From Vogesella indigofera (GTDB taxonomy: Bacteria; Pseudomonadota; Gammaproteobacteria; Burkholderiales; Chromobacteriaceae), in NCBI RefSeq assembly GCF_003633895.1, contig NZ_RBID01000011.1, forward strand, positions 62,001 to 126,000: a DNA stretch of 64,000 bases, read 5' to 3'. Shown here one piece after another: positions 1,838 to 63,396 of the stretch. The translations under genes and the position numbers were made by a program. A model generated the notes under the pieces. It saw only the letters and a list, made by a program, of their open reading frames with translations. It was not told the origin of the DNA and made no database searches. Within the stretch, counting starts at the first letter, position 1; every line of letters starts with the position of its first letter.

Positions 1838-2794
1838 ATGTCACATCTGGTGGAATCGATGGCCTTTATGGGGGCTACGCCCTGGCACGGGCTGGGCAAT
1901 CAATTGACGGAACAGCAGCCGGTCGATGTGTGGCTGCATGAGGCGGGAATGAACTGGACGCTGGAGTCCTCCGAGGTGCTGTTCAATGTATCGAAGGATG
2001 GCATGCACATCCGCCTGCACCGTGACGCCAAGGTACTGTACCGCTCCGATACCCTGGCGCCACTGTCGGTGGTGTCCCCGCGTTACAAGGTGGTGCAGCC
2101 ACATGAGGTGCTGCACTTCTACAACGACCTGGTGCATGCCGGCGGTTTTGAGCTGGAAACGGCGGGGGTGTTGAAGGGCGGCCGCAAGTTGTGGGCGCTG
2201 GCGCGAACTGGGCAGGACACGCTGCTCAAGGGCGGCGACCGGGTCAAAGCCTATTTGCTGTTGGCTACCAGCTGCGATGGCACCTTGTGTACCACGGCAC
2301 AGTTCACCTCGGTGCGGGTGGTGTGCAACAACACGCTGCAGATGGCGGTGGGTGAAACGCGTGGTGCGGTGAAGGTGCCGCACTCGACGGTATTTGACCC
2401 GCAGGCGGTGAAAGAGTCGCTGGGTATTGGCCTGTCGTCGTGGGATCACTTCATCGGCGACGTCAAAGCGCTCAGCCGCCGGCCGGTGTCGCCGGATGAG
2501 GCGCGGCAGTACTTTGCCGAGTTGCTGGATGAACCGTTGCCGGAGGATGAGGGTGATACGGTGTCGTCCCGCGCCATGCAGCAGCTGTCGATGTTGTACG
2601 ACGGTGGCGGCCTGGGGTCGCTGCTGTCCAGTAGTCGCAATACGGCCTGGGGACTGGTCAATGCGGTGACCGAGTATGTCGATCATCGCCGTCGTGCCCG
2701 CAGCCAGGACTACCGCCTCGATTCTGCCTGGTTCGGCCAGGGCGCGCAGCTGAAAGACCAGGCGCTGCAGCGGGCGCTGGCACTGCTGGATTGA
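1838..2794 (+). CDS. DUF932 phage/plasmid-related protein (TIGR03299-like)
   Basis: A 318-residue cytoplasmic protein opening with MSHLVESMAFMGATPWHGLG, typical of the DUF932 / 'phage-plasmid-like' family (TIGR03299) found on plasmids, integrative elements and phages. Its biochemical role is not established. The rest of the family domain runs through about residue 290, and the length is normal for the family. The start is set by GGAGAAGGTGAT a few bases upstream. It heads a cassette with an unknown gene, a YqaJ exonuclease and a gp3-like protein, so a role in replication or recombination of a mobile element is inferred. Confidence 0.85.
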   Translation: MSHLVESMAFMGATPWHGLGNQLTEQQPVDVWLHEAGMNWTLESSEVLFNVSKDGMHIRLHRDAKVLYRSDTLAPLSVVSPRYKVVQPHEVLHFYNDLVHAGGFELETAGVLKGGRKLWALARTGQDTLLKGGDRVKAYLLLATSCDGTLCTTAQFTSVRVVCNNTLQMAVGETRGAVKVPHSTVFDPQAVKESLGIGLSSWDHFIGDVKALSRRPVSPDEARQYFAELLDEPLPEDEGDTVSSRAMQQLSMLYDGGGLGSLLSSSRNTAWGLVNAVTEYVDHRRRARSQDYRLDSAWFGQGAQLKDQALQRALALLD

Positions 2795-2797
2795 GCC

Positions 2798-3253
2798 ATG
2801 GCCAGCGAACTGGACATTGCGCGAGCTGCCACCGGGCTGGCGATGGGACTGCGTGACTTCTGCAGCTGGAGCGACGCCAGGCTGCCCTACGACGGCCAGG
2901 ACCTGCCGGTCACCTTGCTGTCGCTCTGGGGCCGGGGGGCTTGGGAGCTGCAGGCTGAGCTGGCGCAGTACGCACCGCTGGTGGTGCAACTGGAAGCCGA
3001 GCTGTGGGCGGTGCTGCAGGAGGGGTTTCCGGGGTGGTGGCACTACGAGGTGGTGGAGGCGCTGGGCTGGGCCATTGCCGACTGGATCGTCCAGCATGCC
3101 GGTGCAGCACCCAGCCGGGAGTGGGTAAGCGCGACCCTGCTGCAGTTGGCAGGCCAGTTTTTCACGCGGGCACCGCAAGCAGACTGGCCCGCGTTACGCG
3201 CGGTGTTGCTGCGCCATACCACTGATCCCTCCACGGTGTTGCTGCCGGCCTGA
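2798..3253 (+). CDS. Hypothetical protein in mobile-element cassette
   Basis: A 151-residue soluble protein of no family I recognise. It starts 3 bases after the DUF932 stop, so it is very probably co-translated. The sequence is helical and rich in Trp, Leu and Ala with an acidic bias; there is no signal peptide or membrane segment. Its position between DUF932 and YqaJ genes suggests an accessory role in the same element. Confidence 0.6.
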   Translation: MASELDIARAATGLAMGLRDFCSWSDARLPYDGQDLPVTLLSLWGRGAWELQAELAQYAPLVVQLEAELWAVLQEGFPGWWHYEVVEALGWAIADWIVQHAGAAPSREWVSATLLQLAGQFFTRAPQADWPALRAVLLRHTTDPSTVLLPA

Positions 3254-3389
3254 GTCCCGTTGGCCGCACGCTGCAGTGGCGTGCTGCTGTTCCTCTCCCG
3301 GACTGCCTTCACCGCTGTTTCTCCTCTTGTTGTCTTGCTGGTCGTGCCTTTCCTGCCGTGTTGTGGTTGCCGACTTTCCCTTTTCTTGT

Positions 3390-3419
3390 ACGCCCGGCCG
3401 GGGGTTCCCCGCCGGGCGT
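3390..3419 (+). promoter_or_regulatory. Leader hairpin before the YqaJ gene
   Basis: Stem ACGCCCGGC (3390-3398) pairs with GCCGGGCGT (3411-3419) around a 12-base C/G loop. It ends 11 bases before the ribosome-binding site GGAGG of the exonuclease gene. There is no T tract after it, so a translation or RNA-stability element is as likely as termination. The 188-base gap from 3254 to 3441 holds no other gene. Confidence 0.45.
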
Positions 3420-3441
3420 TATGCCGTTATGGAGGTTCATC

Positions 3442-4425
3442 ATGCGTGAACGTTACGGCCAGGCGCTGCGCCTGGCATCCACTTTGGAACTGTCCCGCCA
3501 GCAGTGGCTGGCGCTACGGGGGCTGGGTATCGGCTCCTCCGATGCCGCGTCGGCGGTGGGCTTGTCACCGTACAAGAGTGCACTGAGCTTGTGGCTGGAG
3601 AAGACTGGCCGCCGCGAGCCGGAAGACCTGTCTGAGAAACAGGCGGTGCTGTGGGGCACGGTACTGGAACCGGTGCTGGCCAATGTCTATGCCGAACAGA
3701 CCGGGCGCCGGGTGCGCCGTGTCAACGCGGTGCTGCAACATGCCGAGCACAGCCACATGCTGGCCAACCTGGATCGTGCGGTGCGTTGTCCAAAACTGGG
3801 GCAGGGCATCCTAGAGATCAAGACCGCCAGCTATCACAGTGCGCCGCAGTGGGAAGAGGGTATCCCCGTTGCCTACCAGTGCCAGGTACTGCACCAACTC
3901 GCCGTCACCGGCCTCAACTGGGCCGATGTGGCGGTGCTGATCGGCGGCCAGGACTTCCGCATCTACCGGGTAGAACGCGATGACGACAAAATCCGCGACC
4001 TGATCGAGCGGGAACAGGACTTCTGGGCACTGGTGCGCTTCGATCAACCGCCGCCACCGGATGGTTCCGAGGATGCCGGCCAGGCACTGAACTGGTTGTT
4101 CCCGCGCGACAACGGCACCACCCTCGACCTGTCCGATTCCACCGACGGCAATCGCCTGTTCCATACCCTGCTGGCGTTGCGGGAACGCAGGGAAGCACTG
4201 GAGCAGCAAGAGGCGCAAGCCAAGCAGCAGCTGCAGACGGTGCTGGGTGAGGCCACCGGTGCCGTGTTCGCTGCCGGCCGCATCAGCTGGAAGAAACCCA
4301 AGGACCGCGAACAGACGGATCTGGAACGGTTGACTGCCGACCATCCCGACTTGCTGCAGCAGTACCGCAAGCCGGTCAGTGGCAGCCGCCGCTTTGTCAT
4401 TCACACCGAAAGGAAATCAGCATGA
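3442..4425 (+). CDS. YqaJ-family viral recombinase (lambda-exonuclease-like)
   Basis: A 327-residue PD-(D/E)XK nuclease of the YqaJ/lambda-exonuclease type, which resects double-stranded DNA ends to feed a single-strand annealing protein. Visible motifs are GIGSSDAASAVGLSPYKSAL (29-48), W-G-T-V-L-E-P with Glu76, ANLDR with Asp111 and EIKT with Glu125/Lys127, the last two being the catalytic D...ExK. The ATG at 3442 is chosen because GGAGG lies 6 bases upstream; the frame is open upstream but has no such site. The last 100 residues hold a Glu/Gln-rich coiled coil. It overlaps the next gene by ATGA. No RecT/Bet homologue is visible; the next gene may be the partner. Confidence 0.87.
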   Translation: MRERYGQALRLASTLELSRQQWLALRGLGIGSSDAASAVGLSPYKSALSLWLEKTGRREPEDLSEKQAVLWGTVLEPVLANVYAEQTGRRVRRVNAVLQHAEHSHMLANLDRAVRCPKLGQGILEIKTASYHSAPQWEEGIPVAYQCQVLHQLAVTGLNWADVAVLIGGQDFRIYRVERDDDKIRDLIEREQDFWALVRFDQPPPPDGSEDAGQALNWLFPRDNGTTLDLSDSTDGNRLFHTLLALRERREALEQQEAQAKQQLQTVLGEATGAVFAAGRISWKKPKDREQTDLERLTADHPDLLQQYRKPVSGSRRFVIHTERKSA

Positions 4426-5315
4426 TCAAGGGACTCGCCATCACCCCGCCCGTGATCGGGCGCATCAGCATTGGCAAGCTGGTGCAGAAGGACCACAAGT
4501 GGCTGCCGGAGAAGGACGACAGCTTTACCCTCACCACTCAGGTGCAGAACCGCGACGGTTGGTTACTGCATCCGCTGCACCAACCTTTGGTTGACCAGGC
4601 CAGCAACGGCAAGATCCGCGCCATTCCCGTGCGCCTGCTGTTCAACAGCAGCGAACTGAACCTGCGTGCCGAATACAGTGCTTTCGACCGCAGTAATGGT
4701 CGGCCGCTGTGTGTCGGTAATGGCGAAACCGCGCGCCGTAGCAGCAAGGAAGGACTGGAGGAGGTGACCTGTTCCGGGCCGGATCGCTGCCCATTTGGCC
4801 AGAGTGTCGGCTGCAAGCTGTACGGCCGCCTCAACGTCCAGGTGGACGGGCAGCAGGACGCACTGGGCACCTTCATCTTCCGCACCACCGGCTACAACTC
4901 GGTGCGCACTCTGGCCGCCCGGCTGAAGTACTTCGAAGCGCTCAGCGGCGGGCTGACCCACTACCTGCCATTGCTGTTACGCCTACGTGCCAAGACCACC
5001 ACCCAGTCCTACCGCACCCCGGTGTACTTCGTCGACCTGACGCTGCGTGACGGCGATGAGCTCGCCAAAGTGGTGGCGCAGGCCAAAGTGGAGGCGGAAC
5101 AGGCGCTGGAGGCGGGCATCGATACCGTGCAACTGGAAGCCGCCGCCAAACAGCTGCTGCAGAACGGCCAGTTTGAAGACACCGAAGAGGAGGTGCCGCA
5201 ACTGCTGGAAGAGTTCTATCCGGACTCGGAGACCGCAGGCGAGGGCAGCAAGCCGGCCACCCCCACACGAACCACTCGGCTGACACGGCAGCTGGGGAAG
5301 GCCAATCAAGCTTAG
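4422..5315 (+). CDS. Gp3/recombination-directionality-factor-like protein
   Basis: A 297-residue protein resembling the plasmid/ICE-borne family often annotated 'hydrolase or metal-binding protein' or gp3-like recombination directionality factor (PF18897-like). This assignment is from memory of the family and is moderate. A cysteine cluster, CSGPDRCPFGQSVGC (about residues 115-129), could bind a metal, and an acidic coiled-coil segment lies near 215-265. It is translationally coupled to the YqaJ exonuclease by a 4-base ATGA overlap, which suggests a joint recombination function. Confidence 0.6.
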   Translation: MIKGLAITPPVIGRISIGKLVQKDHKWLPEKDDSFTLTTQVQNRDGWLLHPLHQPLVDQASNGKIRAIPVRLLFNSSELNLRAEYSAFDRSNGRPLCVGNGETARRSSKEGLEEVTCSGPDRCPFGQSVGCKLYGRLNVQVDGQQDALGTFIFRTTGYNSVRTLAARLKYFEALSGGLTHYLPLLLRLRAKTTTQSYRTPVYFVDLTLRDGDELAKVVAQAKVEAEQALEAGIDTVQLEAAAKQLLQNGQFEDTEEEVPQLLEEFYPDSETAGEGSKPATPTRTTRLTRQLGKANQA

Positions 5316-5438
5316 GAAACAGAACGACCTGTTCAGCCGTATCCGTTTGAAGAAACCCACGGTCGTCACTATGTTGAAGTGATGTCTGGTGTCTCCTCAC
5401 GCTCTTGATGCTACCTGCTGGTTTGTCATACTGGCTGG

Positions 5439-5470
5439 CCCTCGCGGTTTCCTGACCGCGGGGGCATTTC
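5439..5470 (+). terminator. Terminator of the DUF932-YqaJ cassette
   Basis: CCCTCGCGGT-TTCCTG-ACCGCGGGGG stem (one T.G pair) followed by CATTTCTTT. It lies between the convergent gp3-like gene and the XRE gene and is the third GC hairpin of this cassette. Confidence 0.6.
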
Positions 5471-5478
5471 TTTGGGAT

Positions 5479-5829
5479 TTACGCTTCTTTCCCCAAACGC
5501 TGCACCAGCTTCTCCACCACCTCAATGACAAGGGTGCGATCCGCATCATCCAGTTGCGTCAGCAGCTGGCTCAGATGCTGGGCTTGATCCTGCAGCCGAG
5601 GGCTGACTTCATTCAGCAGCTCCGTGACTTCGCAATTGAAGATGTCGGCTAGCTCCACCAACCGAGCCACCGTCGGCATCACCGTTCCACGCTCCATGCG
5701 CGACACCGCCTCGTTGCCGATACTCAGTCGTTCGGCGACCTGTTCCTGTGTCAATTCACCAGCTAACCGATGGCGGGCAATCGCTTTGCCGATCACCTTG
5801 GCCAATGCTTTTTCATCCACCTTCATCAT
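5479..5829 (-). CDS. XRE-family transcriptional regulator
   Basis: A 116-residue DNA-binding protein with an N-terminal Cro/CI-type helix-turn-helix (about residues 8-65; LTQEQVAERLSIGNEAVSRM is the HTH core) and a C-terminal helical segment of about 45 residues, probably for dimerisation. The ATG ATG pair at 5829/5826 preceded by AAAGGTGGG is preferred over a GTG 9 bases upstream. It is divergent from the 5980 gene, and TCAACC/GGTTGA operator repeats lie between them. It probably represses itself and the plus-strand genes beginning at 5980. Confidence 0.85.
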   Translation of the reverse strand: MMKVDEKALAKVIGKAIARHRLAGELTQEQVAERLSIGNEAVSRMERGTVMPTVARLVELADIFNCEVTELLNEVSPRLQDQAQHLSQLLTQLDDADRTLVIEVVEKLVQRLGKEA

Positions 5830-5841
5830 GTTACCCACCTT

Positions 5842-7147: not shown

Positions 7148-8044
7148 ATGGAAACCAGCAAGCCCCAGGTCGGCATTCCTCCCCGCCTGCCCGAAGAATT
7201 GATTGCCGTATTACAGAGTAGTGGCGTCCGCCTGACGCTGGAGGAGCTGCAGCAAATCAGAGAGCGTATCCATCAGGTGGTCAACTACCATGCCACCATT
7301 GGCGTGATGGGCAAGACCGGTGCCGGCAAGAGCAGCTTGTGCAATGCGCTGTTTGGCCGTGACATCGCCGAGACCAGTGCTGTCGAAGCGTGCACCCGAG
7401 CTCCCCAGGAAATCGACTGGTCGATGCAGGAGGGGAAAGGACTGTCACTGATCGATATGCCTGGCGTCGGCGAAAGCGAAGCGCGGGATACGGAATATGC
7501 CGAGCTCTACCGTCAACTACTACCGGAGCTGGATCTGGTGCTGTGGGTAATCAAGGGGGACGACCGGGCGCTGAGCATCGACGAGCACTTCTACCAGCAA
7601 GTGTTACTGCCGCTCATCTGGGACAGTGCCATTCCGGTCATGTTCGTGGTCAGCCAGGCCGACAAGGTAGAGCCCTGCCGCGAGTGGGACTGGCGCAAGA
7701 ACCATCCCGGGCCTTGTCAGGGGCTCAATATCACCGCCAAGGTGGAACAGATACGGCGCCTGTTCAAGCTACCGGCTAGCCAGGTCTGTGCCATCGCCGC
7801 AGAGGAGGGCTATGGTCTGGTCGAGTTGGTAGAGAAGATCGTCACCCTGCTGCCCAACGAAAAAAAATGGAGTTTCACCCGTGAAGCGAAACAGAAAAAC
7901 GTCTCGAACCAAGCGTGGCAAAGCTCATCGCAAGGTTTGTGGGAGTCGATTGCCTCGGCCGTCAAAACGGTGATCAAAGACAGCTGGGACTATGTGTCCA
8001 GCAAGTTCTCCAGCCTGGCCAGCACCCTGTTTGGGTGGTGGTAG
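7148..8044 (+). CDS. YfjP/YeeP-like GTPase
   Basis: A 298-residue P-loop GTPase. G1 is GKTGAGKSS (55-63), G3 is DMPG (103-106), and the G4 position is occupied by SQADK (169-173), as in the prophage-borne YfjP/YkfA/YeeP family. The last 50 residues form an amphipathic, Trp-ended tail (SSKFSSLASTLFGWW) that could touch membrane. The ATG at 7148 is chosen because an upstream in-frame GTG lies inside the preceding terminator. Its role is unknown; relatives occur on prophages and genomic islands. Confidence 0.8.
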   Translation: METSKPQVGIPPRLPEELIAVLQSSGVRLTLEELQQIRERIHQVVNYHATIGVMGKTGAGKSSLCNALFGRDIAETSAVEACTRAPQEIDWSMQEGKGLSLIDMPGVGESEARDTEYAELYRQLLPELDLVLWVIKGDDRALSIDEHFYQQVLLPLIWDSAIPVMFVVSQADKVEPCREWDWRKNHPGPCQGLNITAKVEQIRRLFKLPASQVCAIAAEEGYGLVELVEKIVTLLPNEKKWSFTREAKQKNVSNQAWQSSSQGLWESIASAVKTVIKDSWDYVSSKFSSLASTLFGWW

Positions 8045-8191: not shown

Positions 8192-8716
8192 TTACACTGG
8201 ATCGTGAGTATGCTTTTGGATCTGAGTCACCGGTGGCAGCATCCTGACTACACCAATGGTACAAAGGGCGATGGTTGCCACGAATCCGGCCAGGAACCAC
8301 GGGAAAGGCAGAACGCCATAAGCCAGCGGCTTGGCGACGCCCAAGAAGGTGCCGTAAAGCAGGCTGCCACTGGAAATGCCGAACAGCAGGTTGCGCCGTG
8401 CCATCGAAGCGCCACGAGAAGATCTTCTGATGGCATAGGAGGTAACCGCCCATAGCACAACCAGGCTGACCTTGGTCCACAGCTTGGGATTGTTCAGATA
8501 CTCGGCGAAGCTGCTCAGATAGATGCCGGCACCGATCAGGATGGCGCCTGAAATCCAGAGGTGAGTCTCGCCCCAGTTGAACACATGACGCCAGAACGGG
8601 TGACCGTTTTCCTCGCCGCGCAGGGTACGGGCAAAATGGAATATCGCCATCATGGCCGCGACGGTAGCTATGACATGATAGACGGCGGCTAAAGCAATAA
8701 TGAATTTACCAATCAT
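8192..8716 (-). CDS. Four-helix membrane protein (CopD/DUF2214-like fold suspected)
   Basis: A 174-residue integral membrane protein with about four hydrophobic helices (near 2-24, 50-70, 78-98 and 130-152). The pattern 'WISGAILIGAGIYLSS...NPKLWTKVSLVVLW' recalls DUF2214/CopD-type membrane proteins, but no family is certain. His residues in or near helices (H14, H26, H51) could be haem or metal ligands. The start at 8716 is 2 bases after the DUF1513 stop, so it is the second gene of a Fur-boxed unit. An electron-transfer or metal role is inferred. Confidence 0.6.
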   Translation of the reverse strand: MIGKFIIALAAVYHVIATVAAMMAIFHFARTLRGEENGHPFWRHVFNWGETHLWISGAILIGAGIYLSSFAEYLNNPKLWTKVSLVVLWAVTSYAIRRSSRGASMARRNLLFGISSGSLLYGTFLGVAKPLAYGVLPFPWFLAGFVATIALCTIGVVRMLPPVTQIQKHTHDPV

Positions 8717-8718
8717 GT

Positions 8719-9855
8719 TCACGCCACCAGTACCCAATGGTTATCGAGTGCCATCGGCTTGGGCCAAGGCAGGAATACCGGCTTGGCCGCAATATGCCAG
8801 CGAACCAGTCCGACTGCCGTTGCCAGCAATACCCCGCCCCCCGGATTGGGGCCATGCCAGTCCGCAAGTGCGTAAGATTCCTCCATTTCGACAATGGTCA
8901 GCAGCTTGTCAGGCTCGCCGGGGTGCCAGAGTTTTGCCATGCCCCCCTTGTTGCTAGATAGTACAAAGCCGCCGTTATAGGCAGCAACGATATCTCCGGC
9001 ATAACCGTAGCCGTCATTGTCACGGGTTGGCGTACGCAGCGTGTCGCCATCAAAAACCGCCAGATTGGGCGCTGCAACGCGAAGCTCCGCACTGTCATGC
9101 TCCGCCTGCATCGCAATGCCAAGGTATGTTTTGTCCGCCTCCGGTGAGCGGCTCCAGGCAAGGTGGCGCAGGCTGAGGCGCTGATCGTCCAGCTTCCACT
9201 GGCCCAGCTGACGGCCATTACGGCCATCCAGCCTGACCAGCGAGGAGTCCATGTGCTGCAGATCATATTTCTTGTCTGCCAGCGTGCGCCGCACACCGCC
9301 ATTGGCCACCACCAGATTGCCCGCATCATCAAGTAATGCCTGGTGCGGCTCGATGCCACCACTGGCCCATTCATCCAGTTTTTTCAGGCTGTGACGATCG
9401 CGTACGCCGATACGGCCCTGATCGTTCTTGTAGTCGATCTCGGTGGTGTAAAGGAACTCGCTGCCAACGGCAATATGGCCGCTCAACCGTACCGAGGCAG
9501 ATTCGGCGCTCACATCAATCTGCTGCAGCACCTTGCCGTTACCATCACAACGCAACAGCCAAGTGCCGGGACGCAGTCCGTTGACCAGTAACCCGCCGCC
9601 GGCCTCGGGTACCAGGCCGTGCGGCCGCCCCGGCAGTGCCAGCTGATAGCGGATCTCCAGGGTTTTACGCTCCCAGTCTGCCGCCAGTACTCCTGCATAG
9701 TAAGCATCACTCGCGTTGGGGCCGCGCCAGGCAGCGCCAATAAGAGTCGTGGACCCTCCTTGAGCGTTAGAACCTGCAGCAAGAGCAGCGTGCGGCAGGA
9801 TACCGAGAGCGGCAAGGGAGAGGAGGAAGCGCCGGCGGTCGAGTTCAATGTTCAT
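8719..9855 (-). CDS. DUF1513 Tat-exported beta-propeller-like protein
   Basis: A 378-residue protein with a twin-arginine signal (MNIELDRRRFLLSLAALG; RRRF at 7-10) and cleavage near ALA-AG. The mature protein matches the DUF1513 family, predicted to be a beta-propeller. Relatives usually sit in iron-regulated loci with imelysin and di-haem peroxidases; none of those is visible here. The ATG at 9855 is preferred over one 42 bases upstream because it places the Tat signal at the N-terminus. A Fur-box-like site lies about 41 bases upstream. Confidence 0.8.
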   Translation of the reverse strand: MNIELDRRRFLLSLAALGILPHAALAAGSNAQGGSTTLIGAAWRGPNASDAYYAGVLAADWERKTLEIRYQLALPGRPHGLVPEAGGGLLVNGLRPGTWLLRCDGNGKVLQQIDVSAESASVRLSGHIAVGSEFLYTTEIDYKNDQGRIGVRDRHSLKKLDEWASGGIEPHQALLDDAGNLVVANGGVRRTLADKKYDLQHMDSSLVRLDGRNGRQLGQWKLDDQRLSLRHLAWSRSPEADKTYLGIAMQAEHDSAELRVAAPNLAVFDGDTLRTPTRDNDGYGYAGDIVAAYNGGFVLSSNKGGMAKLWHPGEPDKLLTIVEMEESYALADWHGPNPGGGVLLATAVGLVRWHIAAKPVFLPWPKPMALDNHWVLVA

Positions 9856-9895
9856 GTAATTAACTGGCAGGCTATGCAATAACTGAATATTTGCC

Positions 9896-9914
9896 AATGT
9901 AAATCATTCTTATT
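9896..9914 (-). promoter_or_regulatory. Fur-box-like site upstream of DUF1513 gene
   Basis: AATGTAAATCATTCTTATT matches about 15 of 19 positions of the symmetric AATGATAATCATTATCATT form of the Fur box. It lies ~41 bases upstream of the DUF1513 start, in the usual promoter position. Confidence 0.6.
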
Positions 9915-10010
9915 ACGTAAAGCCTTAATGAAAATCAAGATTGTCAAATCACTAGTTGTATGGTGCTGATGGCAGCCAATCTTGATCCGTGAGTGAGGAA
10001 GATCTGGAAT

Positions 10011-10293: not shown

Positions 10294-11235
10294 TCATGAG
10301 GGTGACTGCCACCCTCGGCCTGGCGGGTTGAGATATCTTGCCCATTGATTGAGCTGTGGCACCATCAGGTTGGCAACCAGTACTGCAAAGCACAGTCCAT
10401 CGGCGTAAAGGCCAAACTCGCGGACTAGCTCAGTAACCATCCCAATCAGGACACCAAAGAAGATACGGCCAAGCTGGCAATCCGGGCTGGTAACCGGATC
10501 CGTGGCGATGAAGAAGGCGGCAAACAGGTAACCGCCAAGGGTCAGGCTGTGCAGGCTTTCCGGTAACGTATGACCTGCCAGCATACAAAGCAGTACCGAA
10601 CTGCCCATCATGGCCAACGGAATTTCCAGTCGACTGACTCTCAACAGCCCCAGAATCAGTCCGCCGGCCAAATAACCTGCCCAAGAGAGATAGGGAGCCG
10701 GTGCGTCGAGTAATTCCGTAGCCAGGGGCGTCGCACTACTGAGTGCATCCAATTGCAGCGGCGGTACGATCTGCAGTTGCTGCTGCAACACTGCCGAGAA
10801 ATCAAGATGGGCACTCCACGGGCTGTGAAAGTTCGGTGCCGGATACAGAAACTGGAAGAAGCAAATCGCGACAACGCCCAGCCCTGCCATCACTGGATTC
10901 AGGCAATTCTTTCCCAGCCCGCCACTGCCGTGCTTTACCACTCCGAGTGCAACCACGGTTGCCAGCAACATCAGCCATGCCGGCACCAGCAAGGGGAGTG
11001 CACGTGACATCAAGCAACCGCAGAGCAACCAGCTCATGTCACCTAGCCCGTGAGAAAGCGATTGTCCACGCACGCGTAGACAGACAGCCTCCACAAGCAA
11101 TGCAAACAGGACACACCAAGCCGTCTGTAACCAGACTACCGAGCCAAATTGCCAAGCATGCAACAGCGTGCCAGGAATCAGCGCGATCACTACGGCAAGC
11201 ATGATGCCCGGTACGGTCTTCGGTTGCAGTCTCAT
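10294..11235 (-). CDS. RnfD/NqrB-like flavinylated membrane subunit
   Basis: A 313-residue membrane protein of the NqrB/RnfD family (PF03116) with nine to ten helices. The segment DALSSATPL (163-171) is the flavinylation motif; Thr169 would carry covalent FMN. In complete Rnf/Nqr complexes this subunit passes electrons within the membrane while ions move. The start at 11235 overlaps the rnfC-like stop by ATGA, so the two are coupled. RnfA, B, E, G and the flavinylating enzyme ApbE are not visible in the window, so this is not a complete Rnf complex. Confidence 0.82.
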   Translation of the reverse strand: MRLQPKTVPGIMLAVVIALIPGTLLHAWQFGSVVWLQTAWCVLFALLVEAVCLRVRGQSLSHGLGDMSWLLCGCLMSRALPLLVPAWLMLLATVVALGVVKHGSGGLGKNCLNPVMAGLGVVAICFFQFLYPAPNFHSPWSAHLDFSAVLQQQLQIVPPLQLDALSSATPLATELLDAPAPYLSWAGYLAGGLILGLLRVSRLEIPLAMMGSSVLLCMLAGHTLPESLHSLTLGGYLFAAFFIATDPVTSPDCQLGRIFFGVLIGMVTELVREFGLYADGLCFAVLVANLMVPQLNQWARYLNPPGRGWQSPS

Positions 11236-12620
11236 GTCCGTATCCCTAACCAAATAGTGCGCTTGGCGTGACGAAAACTGTCACGTAACGGCAGGCTGCT
11301 TGGACATACCTGGCTACAGGCGCCACATTCGATACAGGCCGTCAGTTTTTCCTGCTGCAGCAACGCATGGTTTTCTTGTTCACAGGCGCTTAGCAACTGT
11401 AGTGGCCGCAGCGCCATCGGACAGACGTCAACACAGCGGTTACAACGGATGCAGGGACGTGTCGCGGCACGGGGAGGAAATAGGGACTCGGAGCGGGCCA
11501 GCAGACCGCTCGTGGTTTTGCTGACCACCGCGGCAGAGTTGGCCAGCACTCGCCCCATCATCGGCCCGCCGACCTGAATGTCACCGGTACCATGGGGCTG
11601 TGCTGCGGCCAATAAGGTAGAAATTGGAAGCCCGATGGGCGCTTCAATATTGCCCGGGCTTGTTACCGCGCCGCTCAGGGTAACGATGCGACTGACTAGC
11701 GGCTCGCCGTGCAGCAGCGCACGCCCCAATGCGTACACCGTTGCAACATTGAGAACGAGGACACCGACCTCTGCTGGCAACCTGCCGGGAGCCAGCGTAC
11801 GGCCAGTCAGGCTTTTCACCAGCAAGGGTTGGCCGCCGGCCGGGTATCGTAGTGGCAGGGCCCGGACTTCGATACGGCGATCGGCGTTGACTGTCGCTTG
11901 CTGCAAGGCGGTCATCGCCTGGGGTTTGTTGGGCTCAATGCCGATACGCACTTGAGTAATGTCGTATACCTTGGCCAACTGCGCGGCAGCGGCCACGATG
12001 TCGGCGGCACGCTCTCGCATCAGCCGGTCATCACAGGTGAGAAATGGCTCGCACTCGGCACCGTTGATCAGCAGCATATCGAGAGGATGCGCCGTGCCGG
12101 CCAGTTTTATCCCGGTGGGGAAACCCGCGCCGCCCAGGCCAACCAATCCCATTCGCAGCGCGAACTCGGCCAAGGCAGGCACCGTGAGGGGGTGAGGGGG
12201 AAAACAAGGTGGCGCCCAACGCTCTTGCCCATCTGCCGCAATGTGAACTGCAGGTAGGGGCTGCTCACCATCGGCAGGGTGACAGGTATCGATCGCAACT
12301 ACGGTGCCGGAAGTGGAGGCGTGCGCCCAGACGATCGCTGCGCCCCCGCGTCCAATCACTTCCCCCTTGAGTACTTGCTGTCCGATGTGAACGCAAGGCT
12401 CTGCAAGGCTACGGCCATGCTGCAGTGGCACCGCCACAACCTGGCCGGCAAGCGGTAGCGTACGAATGGGCACTTGATTAGACAGTTGCTTGTGCCCGAC
12501 CAGTTTGATTCCGCCACGCCAGGCTGTATTCGTAGTGCTACGGCTGAAAAAGGACGATAACTGGTGCCAGTTGGCGGGAAGCATACCCCGGGCAAACCGG
12601 AGTGGGGTGGCAAGCAGCAT
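11232..12620 (-). CDS. RnfC-like NADH/FMN-binding subunit
   Basis: A 462-residue homologue of RnfC. The N-terminal barrel-sandwich region is followed by the FMN/NADH fold with GLGGAGFPTGIK (about 159-170) and INGAECEPFLTCDD. Two 4Fe-4S motifs lie near the C-terminus: CIRCNRCVDVCP (about 390) and CIECGACSQVCP (about 429). It would take electrons from NADH and pass them to the membrane partner encoded downstream. A Fur-box-like site lies ~92 bases upstream. The start at 12620 has no clear ribosome-binding site; an internal ATG at 12584 is an alternative. Confidence 0.85.
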   Translation of the reverse strand: MLLATPLRFARGMLPANWHQLSSFFSRSTTNTAWRGGIKLVGHKQLSNQVPIRTLPLAGQVVAVPLQHGRSLAEPCVHIGQQVLKGEVIGRGGAAIVWAHASTSGTVVAIDTCHPADGEQPLPAVHIAADGQERWAPPCFPPHPLTVPALAEFALRMGLVGLGGAGFPTGIKLAGTAHPLDMLLINGAECEPFLTCDDRLMRERAADIVAAAAQLAKVYDITQVRIGIEPNKPQAMTALQQATVNADRRIEVRALPLRYPAGGQPLLVKSLTGRTLAPGRLPAEVGVLVLNVATVYALGRALLHGEPLVSRIVTLSGAVTSPGNIEAPIGLPISTLLAAAQPHGTGDIQVGGPMMGRVLANSAAVVSKTTSGLLARSESLFPPRAATRPCIRCNRCVDVCPMALRPLQLLSACEQENHALLQQEKLTACIECGACSQVCPSSLPLRDSFRHAKRTIWLGIRT

Positions 12621-12711
12621 GGCTAGTCATCATGGCGGGTTGAGTTCGCTCCCCAGCTTTAAGCAAGCGAGCATCTAGTGAAGTGCCGATTCTAGTCATA
12701 ACAACAATTCA

Positions 12712-12730
12712 AATACAAATCGTTATCATT
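12712..12730 (-). promoter_or_regulatory. Fur-box-like site upstream of rnfC-like gene
   Basis: AATACAAATCGTTATCATT matches about 15 of 19 positions of the symmetric Fur-box consensus, including an intact TTATCATT arm. It is the second such site facing the minus-strand iron-linked units. Confidence 0.6.
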
Positions 12731-12739
12731 GTTGAAACA

Positions 12740-20753: not shown

Positions 20754-22019
20754 ATGAATAAGCTCTTGGCATTGCCAGTTGCAGGTGACTCGTTTCTGCT
20801 TCGGCGTGGGGACCGGAACATCCTGGTGGATGGTGGATATGGTAGTCGGGCATTGATTGCGGCACTTTCCGCTCCCAGTGTGGCTGTCAACCATCTACAT
20901 ATCGTGGTCTGCACGCATGCAGATAAGGACCACGCTGGCGGCCTGACGGATCTGCTGGAAAAATCCTCAGTTCGGGTCGACGAGTTTTGGCTGCCAGGTT
21001 CCTGGGCGGACTCACTGCCAGCACTCTTACAAAGCCCTCAGCGGGTGGTAGACATACTAGTGGCGGAGCTTGACGAGTTTTCGTCGGAAGAGGCGTACAA
21101 CCACGATGAGGATGACGACAAGTTCGAGTCGCGCGTGCATGCCCGCATCGCCGAGGAGCGGCGCAATTTCCAACTTAATCGCGTGGGCGATGGAGTTCGT
21201 GCCGATCCAGAACGCCAGGATATGGAGTCGGGTCTGGCATGGTTGAAGACTCAAGCTGCAAATCTTGAACTCGATGCAGCCAATGCGACTGCTTCGGCCA
21301 AAGCATTCATCAGGGGGCGGCGGCTAGTCAGGTATCGTGCAGCAAGGAGAGCGTTGGATCGGCGGTGGGCCGCTTTCTGGATCAGTTTGATCGACACCGC
21401 AGAGCGGATCCGCAAGATCGCGGTTCAGGCAATTCGCTACAACGTCAAAGTGCGTTGGTTTGACTTCGGCGAATTCGCCAAGACACGTCGCGCATCTGGA
21501 GGGGAGCCGGGCCTGCTGATTCCTTTGAACGCAGTCGAACTCGTGGTACCTCCGCGCCCAATCAACGTGATGAAGTACATGGTTCGATTAACACCGGTGA
21601 ACGAAGAGAGCTTAGTATTCTTGTCATCCAATTCCTGGGAATGGCCAGATGGGCTCGGCGTGGTGTTCACCGGAGACTCTCCACTGGGAGATGGACCTGG
21701 TTACAGGCAGAACTTGTTGGATTGGCGGCAGGAACCTCGTGGATGGGTTGTTGCCACAGCACCTCACCACGGATCCGAAAGCAATGCGGTTGCTTACAAG
21801 CATCTCCAGGCAATGACTCATGTCGTGCTCTGGTTACGGTCGGGTGGATCATCCCTGCATCCGGGGCCAACCTTCCGGAAGTTACACCCAACGGTACGAG
21901 GGTGTACGCATTGTCCCTATCGGAGGCTCGAGCGGGAGGTGGCCGAAGTGCAGCTGTCACCCCCGTTTCCCTTCGGATGGCCTTTATTCCGGGTCAGGGC
22001 TCACGACTGCAACTGCTAA
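20754..22019 (+). CDS. Metallo-beta-lactamase-fold hydrolase, candidate defence gene
   Basis: A 421-residue MBL-fold protein. THADKDH (54-60) is the metal-binding HxHxDH-type motif with Ala in the second position's place, ILVDGG (23-28) precedes it, and FTGDSP plus APHHGSES provide later ligands. A ~150-residue charged helical insert (about 100-250) separates the two halves. A CTHCPY cysteine pair lies near the end. Substrate (nucleic acid or phosphodiester) is unknown. GGGGA lies 6 bases before the ATG. It is convergent with a KAP NTPase gene; both look like island cargo. Confidence 0.72.
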   Translation: MNKLLALPVAGDSFLLRRGDRNILVDGGYGSRALIAALSAPSVAVNHLHIVVCTHADKDHAGGLTDLLEKSSVRVDEFWLPGSWADSLPALLQSPQRVVDILVAELDEFSSEEAYNHDEDDDKFESRVHARIAEERRNFQLNRVGDGVRADPERQDMESGLAWLKTQAANLELDAANATASAKAFIRGRRLVRYRAARRALDRRWAAFWISLIDTAERIRKIAVQAIRYNVKVRWFDFGEFAKTRRASGGEPGLLIPLNAVELVVPPRPINVMKYMVRLTPVNEESLVFLSSNSWEWPDGLGVVFTGDSPLGDGPGYRQNLLDWRQEPRGWVVATAPHHGSESNAVAYKHLQAMTHVVLWLRSGGSSLHPGPTFRKLHPTVRGCTHCPYRRLEREVAEVQLSPPFPFGWPLFRVRAHDCNC

Positions 22020-22212
22020 CAAGGACACCATGCCAAAGCTCTGCGAACCGTCTTAGAGTAAGGACACTAACTGCCAGTGAATTCAATGACCGCATAGACA
22101 AAAGAAGGAGACAATTGAATTTCGACATCGATTGACTGACGGAACCACAATAACTACCGCAATATGGTGCGTAGCACACCTTTCTGGCCGGTTCCGTATC
22201 GACAGTCCCCCG

Positions 22213-24546
22213 TTAGAAATCGAATGGGACATACTCTCTTAGCCCGAGCCACTTCTCAAGAGATCTATGTAACGTTCGCAGGGCCTCTTCGTACTCGGGG
22301 AATTCTGCGGAATTGATCACGTCGCATTTAGCCTTCGCCACGCCGATGCCGATGAAATCGTCGATGGTCTCTCTGTTAAAACTGTAGTGCGGCGTGGAGA
22401 CCCGATCCCCCAACGAGTGGGTCGTGCCCCGGCTCATCATGCGAGAGGCCATTCTTGCGAAGCCTTGATCGGTCCGGATTGCCCTCACCATCCACTCGCG
22501 AGGTTCGTCCAATGAGCCCGAATAGTCCCTCCATCGGTAGAGCAGGGACACGAGATCCGATTCAGCGGTCAGCGCGTCGACGTCCGTCGCCCGACTCCTG
22601 ATCAGCAGCAGCCATTCGGCCTTCATCGCCTTAACAGTGTCGAGGTCAAGCGCCGGATCGAAGGCGTCACCCTCATTCCGATCAGCTGGATCGTTCAGAT
22701 GGATCAGGATTGCAGCGATGGACAGCGCCTTGGTCTGGCGGAGAGCCTCGAGTACCAGACCATCTCGCCTCCCCTGCGGAATTCGCTTCAGGAACCAGCT
22801 CGTTGCTCGCCATGCTGAAACCCAAGGCGAACTGAAGTGATCGGCTTTGCCTTGGTCCACGATTTTCTGGGCAATCTCAAACATCCCTGGCAACAGCACA
22901 GCGGCATTTTCAACTGGGAGGCGGTCGACCGACTCGTCGAGTCTCACGACAAGCGAGAGCAGTAGGCCATCGTTCTCTAAAGCGGTGATCGCGGCAGCAA
23001 ACCCATCCTTAGTCTCCGTCGCCTCGAGGAACGTGACGAAACGGCTTTCCGACATTTCGCCGACAGCTGTTTGGAGTTCGAAGTAACGCGGGAAGTAGCG
23101 CGAAGAACATACCCGTTTTTCGGTCAACCAATTGTTTTGGAAGCCATCCGCGTAGTTCGTGCCCCCGTATGCCCATTCGAGAGGTGGGAACAGTTCCTTG
23201 AGCGCGTCCCGGACGATGACGCGACGCTCTTCCGATACAATACCGAGCAGCCGCTCGGCTGCCGCCTTGTCCGCATCTCGTCTGCCATAGCCCAGGAAGC
23301 GGCGTTCCTGAAGCACCAGCTCCCTCTCCCGGAACAACGCCTCGTGAAGGCCGGGTTCGAAGACCCGGAGTGCCTCCAGAAGAAGGAAGTCAACAATATT
23401 CACCTCGAACACCTCGCCGGATGCATGCAATGGCATATGCACGGCGATGGATGAGGTCAGTCGGCGAGCGTCACGCATGTTACGCAGCAGAGGCTGAATA
23501 CAGCCAACTAGGGCGTTACCCCAGCGTCTCTGCGAGAACCCGTTCTCCTCGGTTGCGTAGATCCCCGCCAACTCGGAGAGTTCTTCCCCGAATAGACGAT
23601 GCACAATCGACGCCGGGACCGCCGGCAAGTCGAAGTTAGCCTGCACGACCTTCTCGAGGAAGGCGCGACCGTCGCCATCAGCGACCGGATCGAGAGCCCG
23701 TTCTACGATGCTGGGCTGGAACAGCAGTACAAAGATGATGTTTGGTAGATTGGCGTTTGCTTTTACCTGCCGTAGGAGTAACCGGATCTGCTCGGGCTCG
23801 AGTCGGTCGATGTCGTCGACAAAGACGACCAGCGGCCGGTCAAGTTCGCGAAGCCGATCCTCCAGCGCTTCGCGCACCTTGCCGAGCGGTTCGTTGCCAC
23901 GGTCGCGCCCGAGATACGACAGCACGCGCCCCAGCAGGGACGTGCCGACCGAGAGGACGGCGAGAGCGGCCGCCACCTTTGCTGCCTTCGGTAGGTTGAA
24001 ACCTATGGCCGAAGCTACGGCGATTACCGAAACGTTCGTCAGTATCGTCGAGATGAAATGGTTCGAATCCCCGGTCTTCTTAAGCGGCGCACTGGCCCCT
24101 GTGAGGATCGCACTGTAGCGTCGCAGCGCTTCGGCTCGGGCGAGTGCTGGCTTCGAATGCTCTCCCCCTAGACGATCTGCTATCTGGCCGAAGAGGGCAC
24201 GGGCGATCGCGTCGCCGTCGCCCCACTGCCAGGGGTTGAAGTCAAGCCAGTCCGCTCCGTCGCTGGCGTCAAGCCGCTCGGTGATTAGGTTCTTAAGGGA
24301 GGACTTGCCGAAGCCCCACCCTCCGCGGATTGCAAACACCCGGCCCTCGCGCAGACTGAGCTCCGAGAGCACGCCGGCTATCCGGTCCGCGAAGTTGGTC
24401 CTTCTTAGGCGATCCTCGGAAGCTTTCCGGATTGGTGCCTCCGCACCGATACCGCCATCCGGCAGTTCAGCCCTTGAAGCCTCTGCACGCTTCCTCGCAC
24501 GGCGACGGGCAAACCATGCCGACAGACGTACCAGAAGCCTAGTCAT
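22213..24546 (-). CDS. KAP-family P-loop NTPase
   Basis: A 777-residue protein of the KAP family (PF07693), which includes the phage-exclusion protein PifA. Walker A is GGWGFGKSS (75-83), followed by WLDFNPWQW; two membrane helices (about 165-183 and 189-213) are inserted before Walker B LVVFVDDIDR (239-248), the family's characteristic layout. The C-terminal ~450 residues are helical and unassigned. A role in membrane-linked antiviral defence is inferred from family and context only. It is monocistronic with an AT-rich upstream region. Confidence 0.82.
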   Translation of the reverse strand: MTRLLVRLSAWFARRRARKRAEASRAELPDGGIGAEAPIRKASEDRLRRTNFADRIAGVLSELSLREGRVFAIRGGWGFGKSSLKNLITERLDASDGADWLDFNPWQWGDGDAIARALFGQIADRLGGEHSKPALARAEALRRYSAILTGASAPLKKTGDSNHFISTILTNVSVIAVASAIGFNLPKAAKVAAALAVLSVGTSLLGRVLSYLGRDRGNEPLGKVREALEDRLRELDRPLVVFVDDIDRLEPEQIRLLLRQVKANANLPNIIFVLLFQPSIVERALDPVADGDGRAFLEKVVQANFDLPAVPASIVHRLFGEELSELAGIYATEENGFSQRRWGNALVGCIQPLLRNMRDARRLTSSIAVHMPLHASGEVFEVNIVDFLLLEALRVFEPGLHEALFRERELVLQERRFLGYGRRDADKAAAERLLGIVSEERRVIVRDALKELFPPLEWAYGGTNYADGFQNNWLTEKRVCSSRYFPRYFELQTAVGEMSESRFVTFLEATETKDGFAAAITALENDGLLLSLVVRLDESVDRLPVENAAVLLPGMFEIAQKIVDQGKADHFSSPWVSAWRATSWFLKRIPQGRRDGLVLEALRQTKALSIAAILIHLNDPADRNEGDAFDPALDLDTVKAMKAEWLLLIRSRATDVDALTAESDLVSLLYRWRDYSGSLDEPREWMVRAIRTDQGFARMASRMMSRGTTHSLGDRVSTPHYSFNRETIDDFIGIGVAKAKCDVINSAEFPEYEEALRTLHRSLEKWLGLREYVPFDF

Positions 24547-61109: not shown

Positions 61110-61128
61110 GTTGCAAATCATTTGCATT
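61110..61128 (+). promoter_or_regulatory. Fur-box-like site upstream of the TonB receptor
   Basis: GTTGCAAATCATTTGCATT, about 13 of 19 positions of the symmetric Fur box, with further ATTTGCATT repeats around it. It lies 70 bases before the receptor start. Confidence 0.6.
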
Positions 61129-61197: not shown

Positions 61198-63396
61198 ATG
61201 CAGCCCCAGTCTCCTTTATCTCCTTCCCATTCAGCCGCTCCGGTTACCACAACAGCATCCCTGCTCAAGCCGCTGGCTTTTGCCACGCGCATGGCCTTCT
61301 CCGGAATGCTGATGGTCGGGTTTGCAGGCCATGCCTATGCCGAAGAAGTCGCCGAGCTCCCGGCGGTGCAGGTCAGCGCGGACCTGTCCAGGGTGTTTTC
61401 CCGGCCTTATGCCGGTGGCCAGGTTGCCCGTGGGGGGCGCCTGGGCTTGCTGGGTAATGCTGACGCGATGAAGTCGCCGTTCAGCATCAGCAGCTATACC
61501 TCGCAGGCGATACAGAACCAGCAGGCGGCAACGGTGGCCGATGTGCTGGCCAAGGATGCGTCCGTCCGCGCCAGCCAGACCGGGGGCGTGGTCGATTCGT
61601 TCTTCATCCGAGGTTTTCCGATTGGCGAGGGGAATCTGGGGGAAGTCGCACTCGACGGGCTCTATGGTGTGGCGCCCAACTACCGGGTGTTCACCGAGTA
61701 CGCCGAGCGGGTCGAGGTGATCAAGGGGCCGGCCGCGCTGCTGTACGGCATGTCGCCGAACAGTGGCGTCGGCGGCGTGATCAACGTGGTGCCAAAGCGG
61801 GCGCTCGCCCAGGACCTGACCCGGTTCACCGCCGACTACGCGTCGGATACACAGGGGGGCGGGCATCTCGATGTCAGCCGGCGCTTCGGCACGGATGAGC
61901 AGTTCGGCGTGCGTTTCAACGGCAGTCACCACCAGGGCGACACCGCCGTGGACAAGCAGACCCGCACCGCGGATGTCGGGGCCTTGTCGCTCGACTATCA
62001 GGGGGAGCGCTTCAAGGCGACGCTGGACCTGATCAGCCAGCAGGAGGAGTTCGACGCGCCGTCGCGGCCGTTTCTGGTCGCCGCCGGCGTCGCCGTGCCG
62101 TCGGCGCCGGACGGCCAGAACAACGTAACCCAGCAGTGGGCATGGTCGAAGATCGACGACCGCTCGGCCATGTTGCGCACCGAATACGAGCTGAGCGACA
62201 AGCTGACACTGTTTGCCAATGTCGGCGCCGCTCACACGGAAGTGTCGCGCCTGTCCGATCAGACACCGACGATTCTGAATGCCGCGGGCGATACGACGGC
62301 GACGCCGATGCACTTCAAGTTCGACATCGAGCGCTTCACGGCCGACGCGGGCGCGCGTGCCCGCTTCAATACCGGTCCGGTGCGTCATGCAGTCACCCTG
62401 CAGGCCAGCACCTATCGTGACCAACTGGCGCGGGGCTCCACTAGCGGCACGGCTGTGCTGTCGAACATCTACTCGCCGGTGGGCAGCCCGAGCCAGAACG
62501 TGAGCGCGCCGTCCTTGGTACCGAAGGTGTCCGAAACCACGCTGTCCGGCGTCGCCCTGGCCGATACGCTATCCATGCTCGACGAGCGCCTGCAGCTCAT
62601 GGTTGGCGTGCGCCGGCAGCAGGTCGAATCGGACAACTTCAACGCGACTACCGGGGCCGTGACGTCTTCCTACGACAAGAGTGCTGTGACGCCGTTGTTC
62701 GGCATCGTCTTCAAGCCATGGGAAAAGGTCTCGCTTTACGCCAACCGTATCGAAGGGCTGAGCAAGGGAGACATCGCGCCAGCGACGGCATCCAACTCGG
62801 GGGAGGTGTTCGCACCGTACAAGTCGAAGCAGTACGAGGTCGGCGTGAAGATTGATCACGGTGGCCTGATGACCACGGTGAGCGCTTTCCAGATCACAAA
62901 GCCGAGCGGCCAGCTCACCAACGGCGTGTTCGCGGTCGATGCCGAGCAGCGCAACCGTGGTCTGGAGTTCAATGTCGCCGGCGAAGTGGCGAAGTCGGTA
63001 CGGCTGTTTGCTGGCGTCACCTTGCTCGACGCCGAGCTGACCAAGACCAACAGCAGCGCAACCCGCGGCAAAGAGCCGGTTGGCGTTCCATCGGTGCAGG
63101 CCAACCTGAATGCCGAGTGGGACACGCCGTGGCTGTCGGGGCTTACGCTGACGGGCGGCGTGGCCTATACGGGCAAGCAATACGTCAATCAGGCCAATAC
63201 GCAAAGCCTGCCGTCTTGGACCAAGGTCGACGTCGGCACGCGCTATCGCACCAAGATCGACGGCAAGCCCACCACGTTCCGGGCCGGCGTTCAGAACGTG
63301 TTCAACCGCGATTACTGGTCGGGCGTGGCCTCCTACAGCACCCTCTCGCAAGGGGCACCCCGCACGGTGCAGCTGTCCGCCACGGTGGACTTCTAA
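61198..63396 (+). CDS. TonB-dependent siderophore receptor
   Basis: A 732-residue outer-membrane receptor: long signal region (about 1-48, ending HAYA-EE), plug domain (about 75-185; SFFIRGFPIGEGNLGEVALD and VEVIKGPAALLYGMSPNSGV) and a 22-strand barrel ending ...SATVDF with terminal Phe. It resembles FhuA/FpvA-type siderophore receptors. It probably imports the siderophore made by the genes that begin next. No STN signalling domain is present. Confidence 0.9.
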   Translation: MQPQSPLSPSHSAAPVTTTASLLKPLAFATRMAFSGMLMVGFAGHAYAEEVAELPAVQVSADLSRVFSRPYAGGQVARGGRLGLLGNADAMKSPFSISSYTSQAIQNQQAATVADVLAKDASVRASQTGGVVDSFFIRGFPIGEGNLGEVALDGLYGVAPNYRVFTEYAERVEVIKGPAALLYGMSPNSGVGGVINVVPKRALAQDLTRFTADYASDTQGGGHLDVSRRFGTDEQFGVRFNGSHHQGDTAVDKQTRTADVGALSLDYQGERFKATLDLISQQEEFDAPSRPFLVAAGVAVPSAPDGQNNVTQQWAWSKIDDRSAMLRTEYELSDKLTLFANVGAAHTEVSRLSDQTPTILNAAGDTTATPMHFKFDIERFTADAGARARFNTGPVRHAVTLQASTYRDQLARGSTSGTAVLSNIYSPVGSPSQNVSAPSLVPKVSETTLSGVALADTLSMLDERLQLMVGVRRQQVESDNFNATTGAVTSSYDKSAVTPLFGIVFKPWEKVSLYANRIEGLSKGDIAPATASNSGEVFAPYKSKQYEVGVKIDHGGLMTTVSAFQITKPSGQLTNGVFAVDAEQRNRGLEFNVAGEVAKSVRLFAGVTLLDAELTKTNSSATRGKEPVGVPSVQANLNAEWDTPWLSGLTLTGGVAYTGKQYVNQANTQSLPSWTKVDVGTRYRTKIDGKPTTFRAGVQNVFNRDYWSGVASYSTLSQGAPRTVQLSATVDF

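Follow-up and report, generated by a model that had tools for sequence, protein, structure and literature searches.

Within the window, by which we mean the whole stretch of 64,000 nucleotides of Vogesella indigofera DNA that was analysed, lie two genes on the minus strand, designated rnfC2 and rnfD2, which encode homologues of the RnfC and RnfD subunits of the Rnf complex. The original prediction had described RnfC and RnfD reading frames coupled by an ATGA shared between the stop codon of the first and the start codon of the second, and reading of the sequence bears this out. The features of the locus are as follows, with the basis for each given in brackets.

11232 to 12620, minus strand: rnfC2, RnfC-like NAD(H)/FMN/2x[4Fe-4S] subunit, 462 aa (Pfam and NCBIfam profiles, PDB match)
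10294 to 11235, minus strand: rnfD2, RnfD-like membrane flavoprotein, 313 aa from ATG (Pfam profile, PDB match, own clade)
11232 to 11235, minus strand: ATGA in which the stop of rnfC2 overlaps the start of rnfD2 (sequence)
12105 to 12143, minus strand: VGLGGAGFPTGIK, NADH/FMN site of the Nuo51-like domain of RnfC2 (conserved; Pfam domain)
11421 to 11453, minus strand: first CxxCxxCxxxCP motif of RnfC2, C390-C400 (conserved in 14/14)
11304 to 11336, minus strand: second CxxCxxCxxxCP motif of RnfC2, C429-C439 (conserved in 14/14)
10729 to 10731, minus strand: codon of the predicted FMN-acceptor Thr169 of RnfD2, in LDALSSATPL (Thr invariant in alignment)
12709 to 12733, minus strand: Fur-like site, reading TCAAATACAAATCGTTATCATTGTT on the plus strand, ~90-115 bp ahead of rnfC2 (12/19 consensus matches in two overlapping registers offset by 6 bp)

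An RnfC with two 4Fe-4S motifs and an intact NADH/FMN fold had been predicted, and the family profiles agree with this. RnfC2 scores above the Pfam cut-offs for RnfC_N, Complex1_51K (the Nuo51 FMN domain), SLBB and Fer4 (a two-cluster ferredoxin domain), and it exceeds the cut-offs of the NCBIfam RsxC and rnfC models with 429 and 399 bits respectively. Its nearest solved relative in a PDB comparison is the RnfC of 8ahx (E 1.9e-85), and all eight Fe-S cysteines are kept in an alignment of the 14 orthologues considered below. RnfC2 carries a 33-aa N-terminal extension ahead of the conserved WRGG which the canonical RnfC of the V. indigofera genome does not have; as judged from predicted starts, the orthologues are extended by at least 33 residues, often with a basic FLRRLL-like stretch.

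RnfD2 matches a single Pfam family, NQR2_RnfD_RnfE (PF03116; 202 bits, E 1.1e-59), and its nearest relatives in the PDB are the RnfD subunits of 8AHX (E 3.2e-31) and 7ZC6, homology to which suggests ten transmembrane helices. Its score falls narrowly below the cut-off of the NCBIfam rnfD model (201.9 vs 207.05), which provided the first hint that this is a non-standard RnfD. The flavinylation motif, predicted to be intact, is found as SSAT, not SGAT, a form which the canonical RnfD of the same genome also has, and the acceptor Thr and the Asp at position -6 are invariant in all 14 RnfD2, 12 RnfD and two NqrB sequences aligned. Both riboflavin ligands, an Asn and an Asp (N124 and D248 in 7ZC6), are likewise invariant across the 14 RnfD2 sequences when these are aligned to 7ZC6. 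Phylogenetically, the RnfD2 sequences form a clade of their own (support 99/99), apart from NqrB and from the RnfD found in the same families. This clade groups with RnfD rather than with NqrB, in a tree where long branches were flagged for NqrB and for G352, a distant member of the order. A further difference lies in the linker between the Thr and the GG of the next helix, which spans 20-21 residues in 14/14 RnfD2 vs 34-46 in the RnfD and NqrB compared, and is shorter by 13-25 residues. In the Rnf of C. tetanomorphum it is this five-helix linker of RnfD that holds RnfG (PMC9588780), and the shortened stretch of RnfD2 may therefore correspond to the region of RnfG docking in the solved Rnf. 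Structure prediction for RnfD2 with four sequences gave a mean pLDDT of 39.6 and no confident model.

Profile searches of the V. indigofera genome (a 3.62 Mb assembly of 20 contigs) returned two RnfC_N matches and two matches of the RnfD type, and no more. The second RnfC/RnfD pair lies, by reading of the open reading frames, inside a complete rnfABCDGE that is accompanied by nth on contig C5, where the RnfA/E and RnfG-type matches are also located, and the single ApbE of the genome is encoded on contig C2, directly behind gshA-gshB (named from their translations). The window thus holds neither RnfA, RnfB, RnfE and RnfG nor ApbE, in agreement with the original prediction, and the full rnf which it had proposed to look for elsewhere in the genome is present. 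That prediction had also named an RnfABEG set on the same transcript as the finding that would speak against it; this was looked for and none was found. A full rnf on the rnfC2-rnfD2 transcript was rejected, given that the further RnfD, RnfA/E and RnfG matches are all away from the pair, and rnfC2-rnfD2 is a separate two-gene unit besides the complete Rnf pump of this genome.

A survey of RnfCD loci, also proposed at the outset, yielded 13 orthologous pairs besides that of the window, in Chromobacteriaceae, in a Pseudomonas group and in one distant member of the order, with RnfD2 identities of 48-96%; two of their genomes are without RnfA/E. Within the family, RnfD2 orthologues occur in 4 of 61 genomes, namely the window's own, the sister genome G052 (95%), and G034 and G048 (71% each), the latter being Pseudogulbenkiania subflava. 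Pseudomonas sp. BN417 and P. taeanensis carry RnfD2 at 62-63%, it occurs in eight of 18 genomes from BN417's genus, and in G352 it is found at 48%. Only the window's genome, G352 and BN417 passed E 1e-50 when a sample of the order (399 genomes) and of BN417's class (369) was searched, a strict threshold at which more distant pairs may have been missed. In all 14 loci examined, rnfC2 stands directly ahead of rnfD2. A remnant of the pair is seen in a further family member (G047, L033 1313-1626), in which RnfD2 residues 54-93 join 267-317 with ~170 residues deleted. A plasmid origin was considered and rejected, since the matches to RnfD2 and RnfC2 that tblastn returned from 72,556 plasmid records were all below 60% identity, the best listed being canonical rsxD/rsxC.

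In the 14 loci compared, RnfA, RnfB, RnfE and RnfG are all missing from the surroundings of the pair, and the only recurring neighbour is apbE, which lies near the pair in 7/14 loci. In six Pseudomonas loci it is divergent and adjacent; in G352 it lies 1.6 kb downstream, with rnfC2-rnfD2 placed between gshA and gshB-apbE (L063 7271-12395). ApbE is encoded in all 14 pair-bearing genomes; the window's genome and P. subflava each have a single apbE, the one linked to gshB, and rnfCD2 lies at another place. Other neighbours vary among the loci compared, so that a fixed genomic site for the pair was rejected; in G352, for instance, the pair adjoins a YaeF/YiiX-like amidase gene.

The wider gene content of these genomes bears on whether the pair depends upon Rnf. 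RnfA/E or NqrD/E homologues are found in 12 of the 14, where the pair may consequently cross-talk with a complete Rnf or Nqr, and none is found in P. subflava or G352. The P. subflava genome has no further RnfD besides RnfD2, and its sole FMN_bind match sits in a NosR-like protein; a profile search of G352 found no FMN_bind protein. The presence of the pair in these two genomes, with neither RnfA/E nor RnfG, indicates that it can stand alone and that, in at least these two, it is no satellite of a full Rnf. This matters for the idea that RnfC2 and RnfD2 are alternative subunits, taking the places of RnfC and RnfD in the canonical complex in certain circumstances, low iron being one example. 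Such a role would fit the full rnfABCDGE of the window's own genome and the clustered RnfA/E, canonical RnfD and RnfG matches of G034, but we consider it quite unlikely given that P. subflava and G352 hold the pair with no RnfA/E at all and that the linker at which RnfG docks is reduced by 13-25 residues in RnfD2.

Published work on Rnf traces the electron path from the FMN of RnfG to the FMN and then the riboflavin of RnfD, and onwards through the two clusters and the FMN of RnfC to NAD+ (PMC12174285, PMC9588780, PMC11889175), and in A. woodii it has been argued that RnfD serves electron transfer only and not ion transport (PMC11889175). On this path RnfC and RnfD together constitute a complete arm linking NAD(H) to the FMN on the periplasmic side, and an NADH-fed transmembrane wire is hence the best reading of the pair; since some relatives keep the pair without any Rnf pump, this wire is probably a stand-alone one. 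We therefore favour, with a probability of roughly 0.6, the interpretation that RnfC2D2 is a stand-alone membrane-spanning NADH dehydrogenase, corresponding to the NAD(H)-side half of Rnf, which passes electrons outward via a covalent periplasmic FMN and without RnfG. The corresponding part of the original prediction, that of an NADH-fed membrane electron route, is accordingly the one best supported, by the published Rnf structures, by the genomes without RnfA/E and by the frequent occurrence of apbE alongside the pair.

From homology to Rnf, we infer that the two proteins form a complex, that RnfD2 is flavinylated, and also the direction of electron flow and the kind of acceptor. NADH would be oxidised at the FMN of RnfC2, from which single electrons would pass to the two [4Fe-4S] clusters and then cross the membrane through RnfD2, by way of riboflavin, to the covalent FMN on the periplasmic face. 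This FMN would be attached by ApbE, whose gene neighbours the pair in many relatives but is located away from it in the V. indigofera genome, and the FMN would reduce a periplasmic or membrane acceptor directly, with no need of RnfG. Run from NADH outward in this manner, RnfC2D2 would be a simple transmembrane reductase, for which ferric iron, ferric siderophores or quinone appear to be the likeliest acceptors in this lineage. Against this interpretation weigh the possible cross-talk in the 12 genomes with RnfA/E or Nqr-type homologues, the lack of any periplasmic acceptor gene next to rnfC2-rnfD2 and, in the window's genome, an apbE that neighbours gshB and not rnfCD2.

Were quinone the acceptor, the pair could be a small non-classical NADH:quinone oxidoreductase in which the flavins of RnfD2 deliver electrons to ubiquinone as NqrB does. 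NqrB, the homologue of RnfD in Nqr, hands electrons from riboflavin to ubiquinone (PMC12174285), and no periplasmic acceptor is encoded next to the pair, which would both be in keeping with this; we nevertheless regard it as unlikely, because RnfC2 retains its FMN and both clusters, so that riboflavin would be expected to be turned towards RnfC and not towards quinone, because RnfD2 sits with RnfD as opposed to NqrB in the tree, and because a covalent periplasmic FMN would then be needless. Flow could also run inwards, from a periplasmic or membrane donor to the FMN of RnfD2 and on to NAD+ reduction by RnfC2, which is how the same arm operates in forward Rnf (PMC12174285, PMC9588780), but with the pumping half missing, no low-potential donor in the periplasm suggests itself, and this direction seems very unlikely. 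The patchy distribution of the pair and the large internal deletion in the G047 copy might suggest that the pair is what is left of a duplicated rnf operon, in decay and without function. That 14 intact pairs persist across wide divergence, with every cofactor residue invariant and a derived linker in common, makes such decay most improbable.

Compared with the Rnf complex (RnfABCDGE; cryo-EM structures 7ZC6, 8AHX and 9ERK), the two proteins are full-length homologues of subunits C and D, retain every cofactor residue and correspond to the NAD(H) output arm, but the ferredoxin side, the [2Fe-2S] pump core and the RnfG shuttle are missing along with RnfA, RnfB, RnfE and RnfG, the RnfD2 linker is shortened, RnfC2 is N-terminally extended and the RnfD2 clade is separate. 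We do not class RnfC2D2 as an Rnf complex because the defining A, B, E and G subunits were looked for and not found alongside the pair. Na+-NQR also contains a homologue of RnfD2, NqrB, which likewise bears covalent FMN and riboflavin, whereas its NqrA is cofactor-free, NADH enters via NqrF and the acceptor is quinone. RnfC2D2 does not belong with this NqrA/B/C/D/E/F set, as RnfD2 groups with RnfD and RnfC2 falls far below the NqrA cut-offs (42 bits in PRK05352 against 450, and 19 in TIGR01936 against 321).

The nearest described kind is the NQR/RNF-like two-subunit system of Meheust et al. 2021 (PMC8238504; see also PMC10979944), which likewise comprises a single arm linked to ApbE, and for which one-way transfer from NAD(P)H to the periplasm has been supposed; for RnfC2D2, homology points to a comparable single-arm path. 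Those systems, encoded in flavinylation-associated clusters and found mainly in Actinobacteria and CPR, consist of an RnfD-NqrF fusion (PF00175), with no Thr in the RnfD-like part, and an RnfG-like FMN-bind protein, and it is in the NADH module and the RnfG-like partner that the difference lies: RnfC2D2 has RnfC as a separate NADH module, no FMN-bind protein and a retained Thr, and RnfD2 shows no PF00175 fusion, matching PF03116 only. No earlier description of a unit of RnfC and RnfD only was found in the literature searched. If our interpretation is correct, the U-shaped electron path of Rnf would be modular, with the NAD(H) arm alone serving as a minimal wire from NADH to the periplasm; RnfC2D2 would represent a second architecture among single-arm Nqr/Rnf-like systems, and a two-protein system would allow the flavin relay of RnfD to be studied without an ion pump.

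Whilst the genes, the cofactor motifs and the absence of other rnf parts all stood up, the Fur box of the original prediction did not fare as well. A 12/19 match to the Fur consensus is indeed present upstream of rnfC2, but it is a weak one: when the 220-bp region was dinucleotide-shuffled 400 times, 62 of the shuffled versions equalled it. The sister genome G052 carries the block without change, and the three other Chromobacteriaceae loci have Fur-like sites of 12, 12 and 13 of 19, with 13/19 in G034 (reached by 8/400 shuffles) and 12/19 in P. subflava (44/400). No comparable site occurs in the other ten loci, those of Pseudomonas and G352, where the best matches are 9-11/19. As the scores are confined to the Chromobacteriaceae, Fur control of the pair is possible there, and a Fur box is not general to the RnfCD2 family. 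A Fur matrix specific to this genome was considered from its TonB receptors, of which there are five, too few for this approach. The Pseudomonas loci share an upstream block of their own, CCTACCGTTTGTCAGG-like and then TGATCAAAAACTGAACAA-like, with no Fur box (L038 ~7400-7560; L064-L070).

The further proposal that the pair acts in iron limitation, reducing ferric iron or a siderophore, is in our hands weakened by the site's low score, by its absence in Pseudomonas and G352, and by the finding that no iron gene is a conserved neighbour of the pair among the loci compared. Published single-arm flavinylated systems are often linked to iron (PMC8238504), which keeps the idea of a ferric reductase alive, and overall an iron role is weakly suggested by these sequence comparisons. 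We accordingly treat as doubtful the fuller version, that RnfC2D2 would be an NADH-fed assimilatory reductase, spread between lineages with its own ApbE, which passes electrons from the periplasmic flavin to ferric iron or siderophores and is under Fur in Chromobacteriaceae.

Downstream of rnfD2 lies a DUF1513 gene (8719-9897, minus strand). It has two 13/19 Fur-like matches (9893-9917 and 9924-9942) immediately ahead of the probable ATG, a score reached by 28/400 shuffles. Behind this gene comes one for a small membrane protein (8192-8737), and the DUF1513 gene may represent a second unit regulated by iron. DUF1513 was rejected as a conserved partner of the pair, there being no homologue next to the other pairs. 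Elsewhere in the window, a TonB-dependent receptor (61198-63393, plus strand) has a Fur-like site, GCAAATGCAAATGATTTGC, upstream at 61113. Reading of translations also revealed a phage-like run at 1838-5838, with a DUF932-like protein, a YqaJ-like exonuclease, a RecT-like or related protein and an XRE regulator, and, at 20754-24546, a gene for an MBL-fold (ComEC-like) protein that converges on one for a large KAP-like P-loop ATPase, which together are possibly a defence-type island.
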